Shown here in pieces: positions 12,156-24,784 of a stretch of 24,939 nt of DNA. The notes below the pieces were generated by a model. It was given only the letters and a program-made list of their open reading frames with translations. It was not told the DNA's origin and ran no database searches. This DNA comes from a virus: positions 1 to 24,939 of IMG/VR virus record IMGVR_UViG_3300047463_000307. One strand, written 5' to 3'. Both the position numbers and the translations under genes were made by a program. The first letter of the stretch is position 1. Every line of letters starts with the position of its first letter.

Positions 12156-12163
12156 TATTTATT
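12156..12163 (-). promoter_or_regulatory. Possible late promoter just ahead of gp25
   Basis: The minus strand reads AATAAATA, overlapping the TAA stop of the spike gene by two bases. The predicted start would leave only about 3 nt before the gp25 ATG, so either the mRNA is leaderless or the box is not used. Weak call. Confidence 0.3.
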
Positions 12164-12956
12164 AAACGTGCGGTATGATGCTGCTGATTGTGTTGGCCTG
12201 AGACGTAATCGTGTTGGCGTGAGTGATGATCGTGTTAGCAGCATTGGTAATGATGATGTCGCCGTTGGTACTGATCTCTCCAGACGCGTCTAGAGTTATT
12301 CTAGAAGCCACTATCTTATACTCTCCAGCCACCTGAAAGTTACGATCGCCGAGGATTAGCTCGGTAGAATTTCCCTTTACTACAGCTGATAGATTACCAC
12401 CCACAACAGAGACCATATTCTGACCGGCCGATGCATATATATTTTCCCCCGCAGTGGCAGTTATGTCCTTACCAGCAGTAGCGGTAACGCTCTCGCCGGC
12501 GTGAATCTCAGCAGACTTGTTAACAGCTGCGGTTAGACTACCGCCGATCGATGCAGTGGCATTACCGTTTATCTCCACGTGAGCGTCGCCGCCGACGACC
12601 AGCCTAAGCATGCCGCCGATCTTGACGTCGCCGTTCTTGTCTATCGTTAGTGTCAAGCCGCCCTTGGTATACTTGTATTCGTTGGCGCTGACTAGTTCTA
12701 CCTTACGCCCGTCTTCCGATATCTCAAAGTACGTACCGGCTCGATGGCCCATTCGCACGCGCTCGCGACCCGGCGTGTCGTCCCAGTGCATCTCGTGCCC
12801 TGAGCGTGTGACCATCGCGTTATTGTATGGATATTCAGGAGCAGCCGTAGAAGGCGGCAAACGATTATTAGCATCCGATGATTTATTTAATGTCTCAGTA
12901 CCAGGTCCAAGTTCTCCTGGTAAAGTACCCGAAAGATTATAGTTATTAAATTCCAT
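12162..12956 (-). CDS. Baseplate central spike, gp5 C-terminal beta-helix protein
   Basis: 264 residues. Residues 54-74 (EMHWDDTPGRERVRMGHRAG) form the gp5/VgrG-type motif that precedes the needle. From about 105 on, the sequence is a run of short beta repeats (SIGGSLTAAVNKSAEIHAG, then TATAGKDITATAGENIYASAG) typical of the triple-stranded beta-helix of T4 gp5C. Alternating small/valine residues continue to the C-terminus (NTIITHANTITSQANTISS). It should trimerise as the membrane-piercing needle under the hub. In T4 this is the C-terminal part of gp5; here it is a separate ORF whose ATG directly abuts the stop of the OB-fold gene. No separate tip protein (PAAR or gp5.4) is seen next to it. 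Confidence 0.88.
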   Translation of the reverse strand: MEFNNYNLSGTLPGELGPGTETLNKSSDANNRLPPSTAAPEYPYNNAMVTRSGHEMHWDDTPGRERVRMGHRAGTYFEISEDGRKVELVSANEYKYTKGGLTLTIDKNGDVKIGGMLRLVVGGDAHVEINGNATASIGGSLTAAVNKSAEIHAGESVTATAGKDITATAGENIYASAGQNMVSVVGGNLSAVVKGNSTELILGDRNFQVAGEYKIVASRITLDASGEISTNGDIIITNAANTIITHANTITSQANTISSIIPHV

Positions 12957-14213
12957 TTATCCAGACACCAGCCCAGTAGTAGTATCAGTACCAGTATAAC
13001 CTTGTTCTCTCTCTATAAGCTGTCTCATAACATTAATATTATCTTCAGGACCATATACAGGATTTACTTGCTCTGGAGGAGGTTTATCTGGCGAATAATA
13101 TATAAGATTTTGATTCAGTTGATCTGCAGAAGTAATAGTCGCAGGAAGAGCAACTGTTTCTTGATCTGCATACGGATTGGTCTTACCTGAACTAGACGGC
13201 GTAGTAACCGCTTTGGACGACGTCGTAGTAGGTGGATCCGGAATTGGAGGTGGCGTAGGCTCAGCCGCCTTCATGGCAAAATCGCGCAGCTTGCTGGTAG
13301 CAGCTAGAGCAAATACAGCCTCGCTTAATATCGATGAGAAGCCGCCACCTATTATAGAGGACAGTCCAAACGCCTGAGACATTAGCCCACCAACCGTGCT
13401 ACCGAGCATCGATGTTGGATCTATATTTGTCATGGTGTTTGCTAGGAGCAAGAGCTGCGCTATACCACCGTTCGCTGCCAGAACTTGAATCTGTGTTGGT
13501 AGGGCCGCTAGGGCTTCCGCCTCAGCCTTACCCTGCTGCAGCATGTCTTGCGCTCTTACTAGAGAAAATGCTAGACCCCCAATTCCTCCAGAAAAAGACG
13601 AGGCGGCTGACATGATCTGGTTAAGCGCGTAACTCTCATAAAATCCGGACACCGAGTCAGCCATCGATCCAGACATGTTGTATGGATCTGCTTGTGTTAG
13701 AAGACCTAGTACATTTCCAGTGTGAGACGCCATCGGCCCGATGCCGCCCGACACGGCTGGAAAAATCGCGCCAATTTGAGACAGAGCTGGAAAATTCCTC
13801 AGGCCAAGCGCCGCGTTTAAGTCTTGACCGCGCGCTGAGTTTGCGACGTCGTTGTACGCTGGGTCTATCGCGTATGAACCATCGACGATCTCTCCAGGTC
13901 TAGTTCTACCAGCGGACGACAACGTTCCGGTGGCTACAAGAACGCGGCGATCGCTGTCCGCGAAATATCCATCCACTATAGTTCCAGGTATTACGCCGAC
14001 CGGCGATCCAGAAACACCTCTTACAGCTGCGCCGCTGTTGATCGGGGTACGCGTCAGCGCCCACGGTAGCTCTGCGTTTGGTATCAAGGTCTCGTTGTCG
14101 TGGAGACCAAATACTCTTACCTGCAGGCGTCCCTGCTTGTACGGGTCCATGACGTTTACGACACGCCCGCGCCACCTCGACCCGCTGTAGTCGCCAGACC
14201 GGTCTACGTTCAC
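12957..14213 (-). CDS. 5: Baseplate hub protein, gp5 N-terminal OB-fold type, no lysozyme domain
   Basis: About 418 residues. The first 90 residues (DYSGSRWRGRVVNVMDPYKQ, then GRLQVRVFGLHDN, then ELPWALTRTP) are the OB-fold of T4 gp5. The T4 lysozyme domain should follow, but I see no such motif. Instead there is an Ala/Gly/Leu-rich, probably helical region (about 120-320) and a Pro/Thr/Ser linker. Start: a GTG at 14234 is possible, but it has no spaced ribosome site. The GTG at 14213 has AGGGA 8 nt upstream and forms a GTGA overlap with the preceding stop, so I prefer it. The protein should sit between the gp27-like ring and the spike encoded next. Confidence 0.85.
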   Translation of the reverse strand: MNVDRSGDYSGSRWRGRVVNVMDPYKQGRLQVRVFGLHDNETLIPNAELPWALTRTPINSGAAVRGVSGSPVGVIPGTIVDGYFADSDRRVLVATGTLSSAGRTRPGEIVDGSYAIDPAYNDVANSARGQDLNAALGLRNFPALSQIGAIFPAVSGGIGPMASHTGNVLGLLTQADPYNMSGSMADSVSGFYESYALNQIMSAASSFSGGIGGLAFSLVRAQDMLQQGKAEAEALAALPTQIQVLAANGGIAQLLLLANTMTNIDPTSMLGSTVGGLMSQAFGLSSIIGGGFSSILSEAVFALAATSKLRDFAMKAAEPTPPPIPDPPTTTSSKAVTTPSSSGKTNPYADQETVALPATITSADQLNQNLIYYSPDKPPPEQVNPVYGPEDNINVMRQLIEREQGYTGTDTTTGLVSG

Positions 14214-15430
14214 GTTGGTGTTCCCTTTAGACACTCCATCACACAGCTATATCTGGGCCGCTCACCCTCTGGATTAATCATATGTCTTAGCGAGGCAACA
14301 ATCATGTTTCCAGATATATCTGTATCCTGAGACGGGTTTGCGGTGAGAGAAGTCTGTCTAGCTATTCTAGCCTCGATTAGATCTCCAGCCTTGAGCTTTG
14401 CGTCTCCAAACACTCTAAGCTTGATCAGGCTCTGCATTAGATTTCCTGAGTACGCGAGCTGGTTTGGTGTAGACTCCGGTATATTTGTTATAGGCATTCG
14501 ATTATCATACGGCAGTGTAGATGTTCTTCCTGGATATTTACCGAACTTAGAGAAGAACGACTGCTTGTTCCAAGACCCGGCGCCGCCAAACTTATCTCTA
14601 GAGTCCGGAAAGCTTATGGTCTTGGACTGATACTCGTTGGTATGAAAGTTGAAGTAGTTAAATCTAGAGCTCATGGTGCCGCTGTCTATTCGATCCACGG
14701 CGTTTATCATGTATGGCAGCTCATACGCGAAGATGTTGTTGTCTGTGAGCTTGGTTATATCTGTGCCGACAGTGGCGTCCTGCATGAAAGTCTTAACGGC
14801 TCTATTTCTAAACAGGCTCTCGATGGTGACGAAGTTAAAACCCTGCTGGTTCTCATAGAACACGTAGCTCGACGACTGGTTCTTCGAGGAAACGGCAAGC
14901 CGTCTCAACCTATCGATGAAGTCCCATGGCTTCTCGTTGTTGGCTATTATGTCCTGAACGCCCTTCGTCTCCTCGACGTTTATTCTCTTGCTGGACTTTA
15001 GATAGCTCTTCAGCACGTCCTGGACATCAGAAGATATAGGTCTCTTGCTGTAGCTCTTCTGTATGTATCCATACTTATCGCTGCCGCCGGCGGCGAAGAA
15101 TACTTCTTCAGAAGCGCATATGAGAGTGAACGTACGAGACTTGTACTGAGCGCTCGGCGCTAGATTCTGCACCTTGTTGACTAGAAACTTATATGAAGCC
15201 TGCTGACCACCCGGCGCCTGAAATACTACGGTGAATGGCTCGCCGCCTGACAGGTTTAGTCCAGCGAACAGCGCGTCGTCAGTGTCTCGTACGTTGAACT
15301 CTGCCACCACGCATGGCGTGAATATGCTCTCGTAGATAGATCCAGATATGAAGCCAGAGTTGATCGTACGACCGGCGATGGTCATGCTGTTGATGATCAG
15401 ATCACCCGGCTGATATGAGTTAAGAGCCAT
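14210..15430 (-). CDS. Baseplate hub protein, gp27-like
   Basis: 406 residues, similar in size to T4 gp27 (391). The segment at 165-180 (NEKPWDFIDRLRRLAV) followed by SSYVFYENQQGFNFVTIESL is the pattern of gp27/gpD-type hub proteins (..PWDFI..L..A....FYE...GFNF.S.E.L). The N-terminus (YQPGDLIINSMTIAGRTI) opens with a tube-fold-like beta strand region. gp27 trimers connect the six-fold tail tube to the three-fold gp5 spike. Its position directly upstream of the gp5-like gene fits. Sequence similarity to T4 gp27 itself is low, so the name is by fold pattern and synteny. The stop overlaps the gp5 GTG (GTGA), and the gap to gp53 is 1 nt. Confidence 0.72.
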   Translation of the reverse strand: MALNSYQPGDLIINSMTIAGRTINSGFISGSIYESIFTPCVVAEFNVRDTDDALFAGLNLSGGEPFTVVFQAPGGQQASYKFLVNKVQNLAPSAQYKSRTFTLICASEEVFFAAGGSDKYGYIQKSYSKRPISSDVQDVLKSYLKSSKRINVEETKGVQDIIANNEKPWDFIDRLRRLAVSSKNQSSSYVFYENQQGFNFVTIESLFRNRAVKTFMQDATVGTDITKLTDNNIFAYELPYMINAVDRIDSGTMSSRFNYFNFHTNEYQSKTISFPDSRDKFGGAGSWNKQSFFSKFGKYPGRTSTLPYDNRMPITNIPESTPNQLAYSGNLMQSLIKLRVFGDAKLKAGDLIEARIARQTSLTANPSQDTDISGNMIVASLRHMINPEGERPRYSCVMECLKGTPT

Positions 15431-16393: not shown

Positions 16394-17389
16394 TTACGTA
16401 ACGGCACCAAGCATGGCTACTTTTTCAGCTTCAGTTAATTCTACTGATAAATTAGGATCATTTTCATATATGTCTTGCTTAGTCCAGTACTCAATTTCTA
16501 TCATATGAATTTTTAGTTCAACTTCAGTAGGAACGTTCTGAGAACCCTTGAAGAAAGACGGCGTTGTCGCTGGAGCATAGTTTACAGTAACATTTTTTAT
16601 AGCTGCTGGTTTAAACTTATACAAGTAATTATCATTTCCATAAAAATTAGTCTGTATTATATACGGGTATTCTAAAAGAGTCCCACCGTTATCGACGTTT
16701 ATATCAGGAAGCATGGCATATTTCAAAGCTCTAATTATAGAGTTAATAGTTCTAGCCTCCTTCGGGTCTCGCGGTATTAATTTCCACGTAAAATTATATT
16801 CTTTAAATGTTGGCTGCTTAAACATTACTGTTAAAAATGGATTTACAGCATAGCCAAATGGCTGTAGTATGTCTTGCGGATTAGCTCCTATCGTAGGCGC
16901 TTGCTGAAGAGCTCTTTTAGAAGCTTCGACTAACGCGCCACCCCCAGCTCCAACTAATCCACCGACGACTGTACCTGCTATATTCATAGACTGGTCTAAT
17001 ATGCTCTGAGGGTCTGTTATTGGACCACCCTTTAATAGGTTTTCAACCGCCGCCCCGACTATTGGCGATTGATTTTCTGCATTCCAATCAGCTGAAAATG
17101 AATCTTGTATGTTCTTGGCAACCGGAAGACGAATTTGACCTTTAATGGGTAGTTTTGGTTGCTTAAACATAGATCTTCTTTCATACTTATGGATGTCAAA
17201 GCACATACTCAGCGGATAGTTTGCAAGATCTGCTGGAAATATCAGTCTTTCCATCTTGATTGTTAGACTAGCAGGATTAAACGCTTGAGAGTTAGCTCTT
17301 GTCAGACCAATAAGAGGAAGTAACGAACCAACACCAGCTGTGGTATAAACTATTTCTTTACCGATTTCCTTAGCAAGATCGAAAGCCAT
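16394..17389 (-). CDS. 48: Baseplate tail-tube cap protein gp48
   Basis: 331 residues (T4 gp48: 364). The diagnostic part is NPFLTVMFKQPTFKEYNFTW, then KLIPRDPKEARTINSIIRAL and KYAMLPD, matching gp48 in which the tube-fold strand is followed by an R...EA..I..II...KY segment. The N-terminal half contains a hydrophobic Gly-rich segment (GTVVGGLVGAGGGALVEAS). gp48 sits between the hub and gp54 and starts tail-tube growth. It is the first gene of the minus baseplate operon. The gene is strikingly AT-rich compared with gp53 next door (one sampled row is 25% GC against 48%). AAGAG lies immediately upstream of the ATG and AAGG about 13 nt further, so the ribosome site is weak. Confidence 0.85.
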   Translation of the reverse strand: MAFDLAKEIGKEIVYTTAGVGSLLPLIGLTRANSQAFNPASLTIKMERLIFPADLANYPLSMCFDIHKYERRSMFKQPKLPIKGQIRLPVAKNIQDSFSADWNAENQSPIVGAAVENLLKGGPITDPQSILDQSMNIAGTVVGGLVGAGGGALVEASKRALQQAPTIGANPQDILQPFGYAVNPFLTVMFKQPTFKEYNFTWKLIPRDPKEARTINSIIRALKYAMLPDINVDNGGTLLEYPYIIQTNFYGNDNYLYKFKPAAIKNVTVNYAPATTPSFFKGSQNVPTEVELKIHMIEIEYWTKQDIYENDPNLSVELTEAEKVAMLGAVT

Positions 17390-17414
17390 CTCTTTGTAAA
17401 ACCTTATTTTATTT

Positions 17415-17440
17415 ACTCTATTTATCCGAATAAATAGAGT
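17415..17440. promoter_or_regulatory. Palindromic divergent late promoter between gp48 and gp4
   Basis: ACTCTATTTAT and ATAAATAGAGT form perfect 11-bp inverted arms around a CCGA centre. On the plus strand the right arm holds AATAAATA (17429-17436); on the minus strand the left arm holds GATAAATA (17426-17419). Each is one base off the T4 late consensus. The boxes face outward with 2 bp between them. The minus start would leave a leader of about 24 nt before gp48; the plus start would fall almost on the gp4 ATG. It is the only non-coding spacer between the two operons. The promoter call is motif-based. Confidence 0.6.
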
Positions 17441-17442
17441 CC

Positions 17443-17877
17443 ATGAAAGGTTTCTTCAAGCCACAATTTCCCCACAAGTACAAGGGTAATCCTACTCAGA
17501 TAGTCTATAGGTCTAGCTGGGAGCTAAAGCTCATGAACCATCTGGACAAGCATCCAGACGTCATGGAGTGGCAGTCTGAGGAGTTCTTCATACCGTATCG
17601 GTCTCCCGTGGACAGAAAGATCCACCGCTACTTTCCAGACTTCCTGGTCAAGAAGAGAGAAGCCAACGGCGCGGTTAAGACCGTTCTGATAGAGGTAAAG
17701 CCTGAGAAGCAGACTAAACCTCCCAAGCATCCAGGAAAGGTTACCAAGCGTTACATCAACGAGGTCTACACCTGGGGCGTCAACAAGGCCAAGTGGAATG
17801 CCGCGGAGGAATACTGTCTAGACCGCGGCTGGACCTTCCACGTGTTTACTGAGAAGCAGCTCGGCATAGCATGGTAA
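17443..17877 (+). CDS. 4: Head completion protein gp4 (nuclease-like fold)
   Basis: 144 residues, as in T4 gp4 (150). The start (FFKPQFPHKYKGNPTQIVY) and the core follow cyanophage gp4. Acidic residues fit a PD-(D/E)xK-type nuclease core: E27 in SWEL, D66 in FPDF, then E84-V-K86 in LIEVKP. gp4 acts after DNA packaging to complete the head so that tails can attach; the nuclease chemistry is predicted from the motif. It opens the plus-strand late operon and overlaps the next gene by 7 nt. The ATG is only 3 nt past the palindromic promoter and has at most a weak GAG ribosome site. Confidence 0.85.
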   Translation: MKGFFKPQFPHKYKGNPTQIVYRSSWELKLMNHLDKHPDVMEWQSEEFFIPYRSPVDRKIHRYFPDFLVKKREANGAVKTVLIEVKPEKQTKPPKHPGKVTKRYINEVYTWGVNKAKWNAAEEYCLDRGWTFHVFTEKQLGIAW

Positions 17878-18467: not shown

Positions 18468-19243
18468 TGCCGTTCGATCTAGAGACGTTTAAGTCCCACC
18501 TGTCTAAGACTGGAACTCTACCGACTAACAAGTTTGAGGTAGACATTGAAATCCCACGAGTATTATGGAATACAGAAGTATTAGTAAATAACTTGCGCAG
18601 GCCGCAGGTGACATTCGGAGAGACTCTAAGCTTCAGGGCTGAGTCGGTGCGGGCGCCCGGCGTGACGCTTCAGACCACCGCTGTGAATCGATATGGCTAT
18701 GGACCGCAGCAGAGGTTTCCATATAACGCCAATTTCACAGACAGCTCAATGACGTTTATCGCTGACAAGCAGAGTCTGATCTGGATATTCTTCTACAACT
18801 GGTTAAACAACGTGTTTGCCTATACCTCGCTGGACAGTCCAAACACTGAGTCTTATCTAAACTATCGATCCAACTACATGTATGACTACGCGGTAAAGAC
18901 TAAGATAAACATCTATGATAACGACGGCAAGCCGTCTACGTCCGTCGAGCTGATAGACTCTTATCCGGTAAGCATGAACGACATCGCGCTGTCGTGGGGA
19001 GACACTAACCAGCTAAAAAGAATAACCGTAACGTTTGCGTTTCGTCACTGGCGTCTGACAAACGTAATTACGTCCGATGGATCGACTAAGGCGTCCGGAC
19101 CAGCTCCTCTTCTTGTACCACCTAGAGGTCAAACAGTAGAAAATATTCAACCTCATCCAGACTCTGTACAGAATGAACAAGGTCAATGGCAAAATAAAGG
19201 CAGTAGAAAAGCTCCACCTAGACAAATAAATAATCAAGATTAA
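18467..19243 (+). CDS. 54: Baseplate-tail tube initiator, gp54-like
   Basis: 258 residues (T4 gp54: 320). The start (FDLETFKSHLSKTGTLPTNK) parallels T4 SLEEFNNQ...FQRN. The C-terminal half, VKTKINIYDNDGKPS, then VELIDSYPVSMNDIALSW, then GDTNQLKRITVTFAFRHW, parallels T4 DIQVNLHSRNGLP...GCIPISVSAPELSYDGDN...TFDVTFAYR. It has the tail-tube fold and should cap gp48 and nucleate gp19 tube polymerisation. A second tube-fold protein such as a gp19 paralogue is the main alternative. The last 45 residues are a polar Pro/Gln-rich tail in a distinctly AT-rich stretch. The start overlaps the previous stop by 1 nt. Confidence 0.75.
   Translation: MPFDLETFKSHLSKTGTLPTNKFEVDIEIPRVLWNTEVLVNNLRRPQVTFGETLSFRAESVRAPGVTLQTTAVNRYGYGPQQRFPYNANFTDSSMTFIADKQSLIWIFFYNWLNNVFAYTSLDSPNTESYLNYRSNYMYDYAVKTKINIYDNDGKPSTSVELIDSYPVSMNDIALSWGDTNQLKRITVTFAFRHWRLTNVITSDGSTKASGPAPLLVPPRGQTVENIQPHPDSVQNEQGQWQNKGSRKAPPRQINNQD
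19225..19232 (+). promoter_or_regulatory. Putative late promoter for gp26 and tape-measure genes
   Basis: AATAAATA within the last codons of gp54. RNA would begin near 19238, about 39 nt before the gp26 ATG, which has its own CGAGG ribosome site. Motif and position only. Confidence 0.38.
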
Positions 19244-20038: not shown

Positions 20039-20160
20039 ACCATAAATACTCAATAACCGACGTGGAGAACCTGATACCGTTTGAGCTTGACATCTACATA
20101 GACATGATAAAGGAACACGTCAGAGAGCTAGAAGAGAAGCAGAGAAACAACGGCGGGTAA
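19975..20160 (+). CDS. gp51-like hub assembly extension, reached by -1 frameshift from gp26
   Basis: In the -1 frame the codons after the slip read YVALSHNTLENYYKTVFALA, then QHHKYSITDVENLIPFELDI and YIDMIKEH, with 61 residues to the stop at 20158-20160. The frame has no ATG near its beginning. The only in-frame ATG (20104) and GTG (20062) would give about 18 and 32 residues, so independent translation is unlikely. The helical, aromatic-rich sequence fits the small protein encoded between gp26 and the tape-measure gene in related phages, which corresponds by position to T4 gene 51 (hub assembly factor). The fusion would resemble the G-GT tail assembly chaperones of lambda. The stop overlaps the next gene's ATG (TAATG). 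Confidence 0.75.
   Translation, partial: YVALSHNTLENYYKTVFALAQHHKYSITDVENLIPFELDIYIDMIKEHVRELEEKQRNNGG
20041..20048 (+). promoter_or_regulatory. Possible late promoter ahead of the tape-measure gene
   Basis: CATAAATACTC within the frameshift ORF shares ATAAATACTC with the strong promoter upstream of SprT. It would start RNA about 105 nt before the 20160 ATG. It is inside coding sequence, so support is weak. Confidence 0.25.
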
Positions 20161-22544
20161 TGGCTAAGAAACCTCGTACGAAGAATAAGAAGATCGATAG
20201 CTTTGATACCAAGAAAGGTATCGAGAGATTTATAGACGATCTTATGGAGGTGGCGCCGACCGCTAAGGGCGCGAGAGCTCTAGCCCGTGAGAAGAGCATG
20301 GGAGCCACAGGCGGCCTGGCTAAGTCTCTAGACCCGATTATCAAGCGCATCTCTGCTACAGACAAGTTTTCGCGCGCCGAAGCTTCCAAGAGCAGCAGAA
20401 AGATCGAGGAGAACCACCAGGAGATTCAGAGACAGGCTGTCTCCATAAGCGTGCTTGAGGCGAAGACACGCGACCTCGCCGCCAAGGCTGAGAGAGCTCT
20501 GGGCATGGCCGAGGAGTTCTCTAAAAACTTTCAAGATTTCAAGAAAAATATAGACAAGCAGTTCAAGAAGATAGAAGACGAGATTAAGAAGAAAGACTCG
20601 ATGTGGGGAGACATGCTCGACGCGGCTATGGGCGCCGCGGCTCTATCTCTCACGAAGAAAGGCGGTGCTGTCGCTAAGAAAGGATTCGACGTAGCTAAGA
20701 AAGCTGTATCAAAGCTGAGAGGCGGTGTCGGTGGTTTGGTGGCTGGTGTTACTCTAGACTTGGCTAGAGACTCACTGAAAGAATCTGGTCACGAGAGACT
20801 AGCCGGAGGCGCCGACGTTCTGTCTAGCGCTCTTACCGGCGCGTCGGCAGGTGCGCTTATCGGATCTATAATACCAGGTCTTGGAACCGCGGTTGGCGGG
20901 GCGATCGGCGGTGCTGTCGGCGGTGCGACAGGATTGATTCAGAACTGGAGCAATATTTTTGGAAAGGGACCGCAGGAATCTGCCGCAATCAAGTCTGCTA
21001 GACAAGAAGGACAAGCTCCAGCACCTGCGCTAGCGCCAGCAACGAGCGGTGGCTCGGCCGCCACTTCAATTTCTAGACCTGCAGCCGGCGGAATGCCAGT
21101 CGATACGTCTGGACTCAAGGGTGTCGGTGAGACTGGTACGACGATTAAGGCCATGCAGATACTGACCGGCAAGGGATGGACTACCGAGCAGGCGGCCGGC
21201 ATAGTTGGTAATCTACAGATGGAATCTGGGCCTGACATGAAGACAAACGCTGTTGGTGACGGCGGCAAGGCCTATGGTATAGCGCAATGGCATCCGGATC
21301 GTCAGGACAGATTCAAGCAGCAGTTTAAGAAAGACATCCGCGAGGCTGGCTTCGAGGAGCAGCTGGAGTTCTTAGACTGGGAGATAAAGAACGTAGAGAC
21401 TCAGGCCTATAGAGCGCTGAAGGAGGCGAGGACAGCTCGCGAGGCGGCTATAGCCTTCGACCGCTACTACGAGAGGTCGAGTGGGGCTCACGTGGCGCAG
21501 CGCGTCGCCAACGCCGAAGCCATAATGAAGAGTCCTAGCCAGAGTGGAGTAACACCAGGCGCTACAGACGAGATGGGAAGACCGCTACCAGGATCTATAC
21601 CAGACGCGAAGCCTGTGGAGAGAGGTGTTCAGCCAGCCGGCACAAACTTTGGCGCGCCAAACCCAAGCGCTGGCGAGGCTAGAGACGTAAGCTCTGGATA
21701 CAAGCCTCCAGCTGGCGCAGCCGGCATGCCTCCAAACGTTCGACTTGGATCCGGCGTCAACATATCAGCTGTCGACAAAGACTTGCTCTCTAGATTCTTT
21801 AGCGCCGCGGCTGAGTACGGGCGCCCCGTCACTATAGAGTCAGCGGCTCGAGACGACAAGAAGCAGGCCGAGCTATGGGTGCGTGGTCGCATATTAAGAG
21901 AGCCTGGAATATACATGCCGGCCCCTCCTAAAACACCGCAGCGAGTAACTGTTAACGGCAGAGAATACGACGTGCCTGGCGGCGGCAGGGGTAGCGCTCA
22001 CGCCGATGGGCAGGCCATAGACGTTCCTCAGGCTCCACAGATGGCGGGAGTTCTACAGAAGTACGGGCTGTCGATACCGTTCGGCGGTAGCGATCCAGTA
22101 CACATACAGAAGATAGGCTACACGCCTGTAGGAGGAGCTCCCATGGGATCTATGGGAGTGCCTCAGGGACAGCTAACTCAGCCATACGTTAGCCCAACGC
22201 AGACAGCGATGAGAGGGTTGACCTCCGCGATGGGAGGCGGGCGAGGGTCTACGATACCGACTTCGATGGGAGCCATGGCCACCACTCCAGGCGTAGGACC
22301 AATGGCCGGACTGCTCAGCACTATGGCGATGGGTGGAGCTAGAACCATGGTGCCTCAGTCTCCAGCGGGAATCATGGGTCTGGTGGGAAGCCTCTTCACC
22401 GCTCTCAACAACCAGAACCGCGGCAACAACCCGCAGTTTAACTCAGACACCTATAGAGACAACCGCGTGCCGTCAGCCATGCCGCCGGCAAACATACTGC
22501 GCGAGGTGTTTGGCATGGACGTACCAACAGCTTACAGACCATAA
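20160..22544 (+). CDS. Tape-measure/hub protein with lysozyme-like and M15-type peptidase domains
   Basis: 794 residues. Residues 80-147 are charged and heptad-like, probably coiled coil. Residues 220-262 form a Gly/Ala-rich hydrophobic segment with GxxxG spacing, common in tape-measure proteins and likely membrane-active. Residues 328-456 match phage tail lysozymes (GIVGNLQMESG with candidate catalytic E355, and YGIAQWHPDRQDRF). Residues 535-652 resemble D-Ala-D-Ala carboxypeptidase/VanY-type M15 enzymes: SxHxxGxAxD at 612-621 (H614, D621) and H648 in DPVHIQ are the likely zinc ligands. The C-terminus is Met/Gly/Pro-rich. It likely supplies local peptidoglycan digestion during DNA entry, a job done by gp5 in T4. 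Its place after gp26/gp51 corresponds to T4 gp29. Tape-measure function is inferred. Confidence 0.78.
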   Translation: MAKKPRTKNKKIDSFDTKKGIERFIDDLMEVAPTAKGARALAREKSMGATGGLAKSLDPIIKRISATDKFSRAEASKSSRKIEENHQEIQRQAVSISVLEAKTRDLAAKAERALGMAEEFSKNFQDFKKNIDKQFKKIEDEIKKKDSMWGDMLDAAMGAAALSLTKKGGAVAKKGFDVAKKAVSKLRGGVGGLVAGVTLDLARDSLKESGHERLAGGADVLSSALTGASAGALIGSIIPGLGTAVGGAIGGAVGGATGLIQNWSNIFGKGPQESAAIKSARQEGQAPAPALAPATSGGSAATSISRPAAGGMPVDTSGLKGVGETGTTIKAMQILTGKGWTTEQAAGIVGNLQMESGPDMKTNAVGDGGKAYGIAQWHPDRQDRFKQQFKKDIREAGFEEQLEFLDWEIKNVETQAYRALKEARTAREAAIAFDRYYERSSGAHVAQRVANAEAIMKSPSQSGVTPGATDEMGRPLPGSIPDAKPVERGVQPAGTNFGAPNPSAGEARDVSSGYKPPAGAAGMPPNVRLGSGVNISAVDKDLLSRFFSAAAEYGRPVTIESAARDDKKQAELWVRGRILREPGIYMPAPPKTPQRVTVNGREYDVPGGGRGSAHADGQAIDVPQAPQMAGVLQKYGLSIPFGGSDPVHIQKIGYTPVGGAPMGSMGVPQGQLTQPYVSPTQTAMRGLTSAMGGGRGSTIPTSMGAMATTPGVGPMAGLLSTMAMGGARTMVPQSPAGIMGLVGSLFTALNNQNRGNNPQFNSDTYRDNRVPSAMPPANILREVFGMDVPTAYRP

Positions 22545-23541: not shown

Positions 23542-24123
23542 TCAATCTCGTCTCTCGAACGTCTCGAGAATAATTTTTTTAAACCTAGCTGCGTCCAGAC
23601 CCAGGAACGGCGTGTACTTCTTGATCTTTCTCGTGACGTCGTCCCACACCGGGTCTCCAGCCATGGCCTTGTCCCAGTACTTGACACAGCCAGTCACCGA
23701 CGCGATCACGCAGAGAGTCTCTAGAGATATCTCGCCGCCCAGGTATTTAACCACGATCGAGGGGTGACCATTCTTGGGAACCATTATGTTTGAGTCGAAG
23801 CTAGAGTCTAGCTTCTTCAGCTCCTCGCGGAACGAGTAGGCCAGCGACTGCTTGCGCTTTAGCCAGCTAGAGTACTTGGTCTCAGCTGACTGGTCATAGG
23901 CGATGTTTCTTATCCAGACCTTTGGGTTGTCTAGGATATTCACCATCAGAAAGTTGAGAGGGTCGGCGTGCTTCGCCACCTTGGCGAAGAAGACCTTGTC
24001 GTTTCTCTTCTCAAAAGACTCCTGCTTTAGCCGCACGCTGCCGTTGTACTGGAAGTAGTTGTAGTCGGTGGTGAAGTGCAGCTTTAGGGCGGAGTACGTC
24101 TTATACGCTTCAAATGGTGTCAC
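23542..24123 (-). CDS. 59: gp59 replicative helicase loader
   Basis: 193 residues (T4: 217). The pattern VRLKQESFEKRNDKVFFAKV, then NFLMVNILDNPKVWIRNI, matches T4 gp59 (YQKRRDKYFFQKL, then ALIFISNLVANQDAWIGDI). The C-terminal part (VWDDVTRKIKKYTPFLGLDA, then KIILETF) matches T4 VWNNYSIKLKAYRKILNID...VFIETV. gp59 loads the gp41 helicase onto gp32-coated forked DNA. The start is GTG at 24123, overlapping the upstream stop in a GTGA arrangement; it gives the family's usual N-terminus (TPFEAYKTYSALKLHF) and suggests coupled translation. T4 has the same 33-59-32 transcription order. Confidence 0.9.
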   Translation of the reverse strand: MTPFEAYKTYSALKLHFTTDYNYFQYNGSVRLKQESFEKRNDKVFFAKVAKHADPLNFLMVNILDNPKVWIRNIAYDQSAETKYSSWLKRKQSLAYSFREELKKLDSSFDSNIMVPKNGHPSIVVKYLGGEISLETLCVIASVTGCVKYWDKAMAGDPVWDDVTRKIKKYTPFLGLDAARFKKIILETFERRD

Positions 24124-24320
24124 AGTCGCCTGTCAATGGTGTCTATGAAGAAAGACTTGAGCTCTCGCTCAAACAGCTCGGGCGAGAGGGTGAGCTTGGA
24201 GATGTATAACTTACGCGTCAACTCTCTTATTCTATCTACGTCGTACTCGTACATCTCGAGATCGATGATCTTGTTACCGAGACGATCTATCTCGTTTCTC
24301 AAATATTCAATCTCACTCAT
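24120..24320 (-). CDS. 33: gp33-like late transcription co-activator
   Basis: 66 residues from the ATG at 24320. A longer reading to 24398 exists, but the 24320 start has a strong GGGGAA ribosome site and an ATGA overlap with the SprT stop, so I use it. The sequence is helical and charged (IEYLRNEIDRLGNKIIDLEM, then RIRELTRKLYISKLTLSPEL). Assignment to gp33 rests mainly on synteny: T4 order is 33-59-32, and small gp33 proteins occur here in cyanophages. In T4, gp33 bridges RNA polymerase and the gp45 sliding clamp to activate late promoters. T4 gp33 is longer (112), and no decisive motif is visible. The C-terminus is hydrophobic/charged (FFIDTIDRRL), where T4 gp33 carries its clamp-binding tail. 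Confidence 0.55.
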   Translation of the reverse strand: MSEIEYLRNEIDRLGNKIIDLEMYEYDVDRIRELTRKLYISKLTLSPELFERELKSFFIDTIDRRL

Positions 24321-24784
24321 ATCTTCCCCTTGTCTACCATGTGATTGATAAACCTTATGTAGAGACCAAGCTCTCTGCCGGCGGCGTCGATCTCCCAAGG
24401 GTGATCCCAGTAATCCAGCGTGTCTAGATCGTGGTATTCGCCCTCATACTTGACTAAGTGTCTCATCGACTCTCTCTTGTACGAGACGTACCTGCCAGAC
24501 ACGTACTGAGCGGTGTGCACCATTTCGTGGGCGAGAGTCGTGAGCACTCTTCTCTCGCCCATGTCTTTGTTTATAACTACTTCGTACTTGTAGTTGCACT
24601 TCCTCGGGTTCTTATAGACGCACTCGCCGAGCATGTCTATAGACATCTTCTTTAGGTGAACTGTGAGGTGGAGCTTCCTCAGGACCTTATGGTCGAACAG
24701 CTTTCTAGCATACCATCTGGCTGCAGCTTCTATCAGGCTTCTCGGTACTCTCTTAGTAGATCTACCCCTGATGGTAAGCTTCAT
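24317..24784 (-). CDS. SprT-like zinc metalloprotease
   Basis: 155 residues. HEMVH at 86-90 (in LTTLAHEMVHTAQY) is an HExxH zinc/catalytic motif, and HPWEIDAAGRE (128-138) places the third ligand at E131, as in SprT/Spartan-like and minigluzincin proteases. The N-terminal half is basic with a beta strand before the active-site helix, as usual in this family. Cellular relatives include Spartan, which cuts DNA-crosslinked proteins; the phage target is unknown. It lies directly upstream of gp33, with an ATGA overlap, in a replication operon, so a DNA-associated role is plausible but unproven. Its GGAG ribosome site is inside a hairpin that also overlaps a late promoter. Confidence 0.8.
   Translation of the reverse strand: MKLTIRGRSTKRVPRSLIEAAARWYARKLFDHKVLRKLHLTVHLKKMSIDMLGECVYKNPRKCNYKYEVVINKDMGERRVLTTLAHEMVHTAQYVSGRYVSYKRESMRHLVKYEGEYHDLDTLDYWDHPWEIDAAGRELGLYIRFINHMVDKGKI

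Follow-up and report, generated by a model that had tools for sequence, protein, structure and literature searches.

In T4-like phages, the late-promoter box lies at −13 to −6 from the RNA start (PMC1524935, PMC2988020). Its sequence is NATAAATA, also in the cyanophages S-PM2 and Syn9 (PMC2984593), and the form CTAAATA has been described as the late box of Aeh1 (PMC1524935). For T4 itself, the direction of late activation is reported to depend on which way round the sliding clamp is loaded (PMC2988020). Here we rely for T4-type late promoters on PMC2988020, PMC1524935, PMC3037559 and PMC2984593. Phage transcripts are often leaderless, according to a passage of PMC5312081, but the titles and abstracts covered, together with the passages checked of PMC5312081 and PMC9004378, contain no description of leaderless mRNA from gp55-type late promoters in T4-like phages. 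Querying the literature for T4 late promoters that diverge and overlap likewise returned no paper.

We analyzed a 24,939-nt stretch of viral DNA (the window) in which a palindrome separates two divergent sets of tail genes. From its sequence and that of its relatives, we consider it rather likely that the palindromic region consists of two T4-type, gp55-dependent late promoters that are opposed between gp48 and gp4, with a gp4 message that is probably leaderless. The window would thus probably represent a leaderless, back-to-back variant of the known T4-type divergent late promoter pair.

Opposed late boxes between gp48 and gp4

The region of interest is the 53-bp gap between a gp48-like gene, followed leftward by a gp53-like gene, and a gp4-like gene, followed rightward by a gp2-like DNA end protector, a gene matching tail-tube families that could be gp54-like, a gp26-like gene and the tape measure gene (Table 1). 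The earlier note had named the genes on the two sides correctly as gp48-like and gp4-like but overlooked the gp2-like gene after gp4. Within the palindrome, the leftward GATAAATA and the rightward AATAAATA are both exact matches to NATAAATA, separated by 2 bp. This agrees with the note's proposal of two late boxes pointing in opposite directions, as do its perfect 11-bp arms and the 2-bp separation; only the right end needs correction, from 17442 to 17440.

Table 1. Coordinates of the promoter region, its flanking genes and other late boxes in the window
Feature	Position	Strand	Details
Perfect inverted repeat	17415..17440	none	11-bp arms, 4-nt spacer; both late boxes inside
Left arm of palindrome	17415-17425		ACTCTATTTAT
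Spacer of palindrome	17426-17429		CCGA
Right arm of palindrome	17430-17440		ATAAATAGAGT
Leftward late box	17419..17426	-	GATAAATA; predicted start 17413, 24-nt leader to gp48
Rightward late box	17429..17436	+	AATAAATA; predicted start 17442 or 17443, 0-1 nt leader to gp4
Difference in contig L004/L403	17422..17422		C for T in the leftward box, giving GATAGATA
gp48-like baseplate tail tube cap	16394..17389	-	first leftward gene; phrog_230, 1.9e-45; ATG 17389
gp4-like head closure protein	17443..17877	+	phrog_218, 8.2e-60; ATG 17443
Late box before gp25-like gene	12156..12163	-	AATAAATA, 8 nt before ATG (12147)
Internal late box before gp26-like gene	19225..19232	+	44 nt before the gene
Internal late box before tape measure gene	20041..20048	+	upstream of the gene

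Boxes matching NATAAATA on both strands of the gap arose in just 2 of 5,000 shuffles, and both boxes, putative promoters, sit upstream of late virion genes as assigned by PHROGs. With the box at −13 to −6, the rightward RNA is predicted to start 0–1 nt before the gp4 AUG; the two predicted starts are 29 bp apart. A gp55 relative is encoded in 10 of 16 related records. It is absent from short fragments, among them the records (18–55 kb) of the three relatives closest to the window. Because the window too is a fragment, of 25 kb, the late sigma of this phage was not seen.

How widespread such pairs are can be read from 387 loci, which yielded 313 distinct gp4 upstream regions after leaving out one locus with no gp4 match (L084), 68 duplicates, four with short upstream sequence and one without a start. 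Scored with the pattern NMTAAATA, 189 regions carried boxes on both strands, 52 a rightward box only, 64 a leftward box only and 8 none. The upstream neighbor was gp48 in 220 of the 313, with a usable gp48 ATG in 205, and clustering at 90% left 146 representatives; both boxes were present in 73 of these, arranged face to face in 60, back to back in 8 and overlapping in 5. Apart from the overlapping cases, spacing ranged over 0–34 bp face to face and 1–19 bp back to back, and this spread led us to reject a preferred spacing between opposed boxes.

Named phages gave a similar picture. Eighteen regions were examined and LIMEstone1, in which the upstream neighbor is on the same strand, was left out; the remaining 17 divergent regions comprised 10 with face-to-face boxes (T4, PS49, Octan, Phi1, F48, P-SSM2, S-RIM2, S-CAM22, Syn9 and S-8S55), 1 with back-to-back boxes (Vibrio 6E35.1a), 5 with one box and 1 with none. 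In T4 and Phi1, the divergent neighbor of gp4 is gp53. Because opposed boxes occur in 189 of 313 regions, and in T4, Phi1 and cyanophages, the putative pair of opposed late promoters upstream of gp4 is ancestral across the T4 superfamily and ordinary, the back-to-back form being a minority.

Megablast of the region against phages gave no match, and a gp48 query in viral contigs returned one locus, a near-identical contig (L004/L403) with 4 differences over 8,286 bp (99.95% identical). One of these differences alters the leftward box (Table 1) and may be an assembly error, as both sequences are environmental assemblies.

Box-to-start distance at gp4

A feature that sets the window apart from T4 is the short distance from the rightward box to gp4. 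We measured this distance in 104 non-redundant relatives whose rightward box lies no more than 80 nt from the gp4 ATG (start codons from our own ORF caller); it was 0–3 nt in none, 4–6 nt in 37, 7–20 nt in 2 and at least 21 nt in 65. This distribution is bimodal, whereas a short mode is lacking at gp48, where 3 of 111 distances fall below 22 nt. A distance of 5 nt places the RNA start, given a box at −13 to −6, on the A of the AUG. The earlier suggestion that gp4 would have almost no leader is thus borne out as a prediction of 0–1 nt, and as a state that recurs among relatives. In the window, an in-frame TAA at 17431–17433 leaves no possible upstream start and so excludes a longer gp4, and the next in-frame ATG is codon 31, beyond conserved residues. 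No Shine-Dalgarno-like sequence lies at a usable distance upstream of gp4. Such triplets precede 4 of 49 short starts versus 26 of 88 leadered starts, a comparison in which the leadered genes, too, often go without them.

The short mode extends to other genes. A survey of 16 related records (G007, G012 and G014 in part, with G013 and the last bases of several records left out) found boxes at 228 of 1,949 genes, 23 of them at 4–6 nt, 4 at 0–3 nt and 10 at 7–14 nt, and two control words gave 0 and 1 genes at 4–6 nt. With gp4 and record G001, which overlaps the window, set aside, 14 of the 28 genes in the 0–14 nt range still fell at 4–6 nt (p 0.0004). A family search, which left out two short-distance genes of G006 crossing a piece boundary, identified gp25-like and tail-tube-like genes alongside gp4 in the short class. 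In T4, no late box lies less than 12 nt from a start. As a side observation, the relatives G002 and G003 have a late box 8 and 9 nt, respectively, upstream of a gene similar in size to the gp25-like gene.

Mapped onto a gp4 tree built with FastTree from 146 rows, the short or leadered state requires 13 changes versus about 30 in shuffles; well-supported branches force at least two of these, and the short mode shows up more than once. Since short-mode loci cluster on the tree, independent switches are few. The window's clade (L001, L005 and L007) is short, and four neighbors (L166, L175, L189 and L190) are leadered. Separately, the cultured cyanophage S-SSM7 (L509, gp4 start 371) has a late box that lies 4 nt upstream of gp4 and overlaps the start codon of the divergent gene.

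The alternative that fares best grants that the rightward box is real but holds that gp4 is mostly translated from messages begun elsewhere, the leaderless transcript being minor. Leaderless messages are frequently translated weakly, and this, like the lack of a usable Shine-Dalgarno-like sequence at gp4, would suit such a view. We nevertheless judge it unlikely: the 4–6 nt mode is sharp, gp4 distances largely skip the 7–20 nt interval and other genes share the short mode, a pattern that is hard to explain unless the position of the start relative to the AUG matters. We therefore favor a rightward start at 17442 or 17443 that would produce a message beginning at the gp4 AUG or one base before it, with gp4 probably translated as a leaderless mRNA, and a leftward start near 17413 that would give gp48 a message with a 24-nt leader.

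Box geometry, competition and the palindrome

Leader length and geometry go together. Among representatives with both boxes, none of 8 short-leader loci but 57 of 61 leadered loci are face to face (Fisher 6e-8, uncorrected for relatedness). Were the gp4 box to move to 5–6 nt before the ATG while gp48 still required its leader of about 24 nt, no arrangement other than back to back or overlapping would be left for the boxes. In the leaderless class, 29 of 37 representatives have no intergenic leftward box, so gp48 need not use the junction site there at all. A candidate leftward promoter for loci of this kind is a leftward NATAAATA word at about +65 inside gp4, although it coincides with conserved Ile-Tyr-Arg codons; it is present in 22 of 38 loci without an intergenic leftward box versus 31 of 108 others (p 0.002, relatedness uncorrected).

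A broader proposal, which we offer tentatively and would rate at a little under even chances, is that a second class of late genes, with messages starting at the AUG, exists in part of the T4 superfamily, that gp4 switched into or out of it more than once, flipping the promoter pair from face to face to back to back, and that the orientation of the loaded clamp selects the operon.

The earlier note held that two polymerases could not bind at once, and with boxes 2 bp apart this is what steric considerations predict: RNA polymerase carrying the phage late sigma would open at either box but not at both simultaneously. Competition for one site is therefore physically likely, but ancestral. Whether it was selected to balance the output of the baseplate operon against that of the tail-tube and tape-measure operon, as the note also proposed, is a different matter. 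The 2-bp separation would fit such selection, mutually exclusive geometry is common among relatives and bidirectional promoters of E. coli can show repression of one direction when the other is strongly activated (PMC12825309). The same source reports no competition at basal strength for the five promoters tested (PMC12825309). At our locus, the leftward box is altered in the near-identical contig, spacing varies widely with no single preferred geometry and the pair occurs in several geometries from T4 to cyanophages, so a gap of roughly 35–60 bp may be enough to account for the closeness of the boxes. Late boxes matching NATAAATA also lie inside the leftward (12156 and 7804) and rightward (18215, 19225 and 20041) gene sets, so balancing by the junction site alone is unlikely. 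On these grounds, we regard selected balancing as even less probable than a minor role for the leaderless transcript. We hypothesize that clamp orientation might act as the chooser between the two directions.

Elsewhere in these gene sets, we noted that gp5 is apparently split into two adjacent genes (12162–14234), one for an N-terminal OB part that lacks any lysozyme match, the other for a C-terminal trimerization part, and that a phage tail lysozyme domain occupies residues 329–456 of the tape measure protein (20160–22544). A gp59-like helicase loader (23542–24123) and a SprT-like protein below the Pfam cut-off (24317–24784) adjoin gp32.

The palindrome itself, which the note treated as a functional object, looks like a by-product of two adjoining late boxes. 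It is the sole perfect inverted repeat in the whole window with arms of at least 11 and a spacer of at most 10, but 18 of 300 dinucleotide shuffles of the window yield at least one of this size, which makes it just mildly unusual by itself; shuffling the 53-bp gap gave one in 6 of 5,000 cases. Each arm owes about 7 bp to the core common to both late boxes, and the remaining 4 bp (GAGT) may be chance. The note had looked to relatives with the same divergent order for conservation of the palindrome, and there its perfect symmetry is not kept: it is broken in L004/L403, and L005 and L007 retain the boxes but have lost the outer symmetry, reducing the palindrome to the box cores. This loss, together with the adjacency forced by short gp4 spacing and a gp48 leader, points to a by-product. 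Perfect symmetry over 22 paired positions could also suggest that a dimeric regulator uses the palindrome as its operator, or that it acts as a terminator or forms an RNA hairpin, but we rejected a conserved operator because the symmetry beyond the box cores is lost in relatives, and a hairpin or terminator because the predicted starts (17413 and 17442) would leave the palindrome outside both RNAs and divergent genes flank it, where a terminator is unneeded, making this reading very improbable.

Implications and comparison with known systems

Some late virion genes may, as the leaderless variant suggests, bypass Shine-Dalgarno initiation. This matters for the detection and annotation of late genes in phages and for the way in which translation is organized during late infection. 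The variant is directly testable, as cultured phages cover both states: S-SSM7 is short, and Syn9 and T4 are leadered.

The closest counterpart is the T4 gp4/gp53 junction, where two opposed TATAAATA boxes occupy the 47-bp gap upstream of gp4; across T4, opposed late boxes lie within 40 bp of each other at five sites, one of them a perfect TATTTATAAATA. Unlike those of the window, however, the T4 boxes at gp4 stand face to face, 7 bp apart, the neighbor is gp53 rather than gp48 and both genes have leaders and Shine-Dalgarno-like sequences. The box sequence is that of the cyanophages S-PM2 and Syn9 (PMC2984593). Syn9 shares the gp48/gp4 divergence with opposed boxes, although its boxes are face to face and its genes have leaders, whereas S-SSM7, with its box 4 nt before gp4, resembles the window's class.

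Two systems outside the T4-type late promoters also invite comparison. Like the bacterial bidirectional promoters of Warman et al. 2026 (PMC12825309), the window combines symmetric −10-like elements and predicted divergent starts with what would be one polymerase at a time. Those promoters have one shared −10 element, and their starts are mostly separated by 10, 18 or 23 bp (PMC12825309); in the window, the two boxes are separate, the predicted starts are 29 bp from each other and the sigma would be that of the phage, and boxes overlap in just 5 of the 73 representatives with both. Finally, the predicted gp4 message resembles leaderless mRNAs such as lambda cI in having its 5′ end at the AUG (PMC9031893), but, unlike that class, it is predicted to arise from the gp55-type late promoters of T4-like phages.
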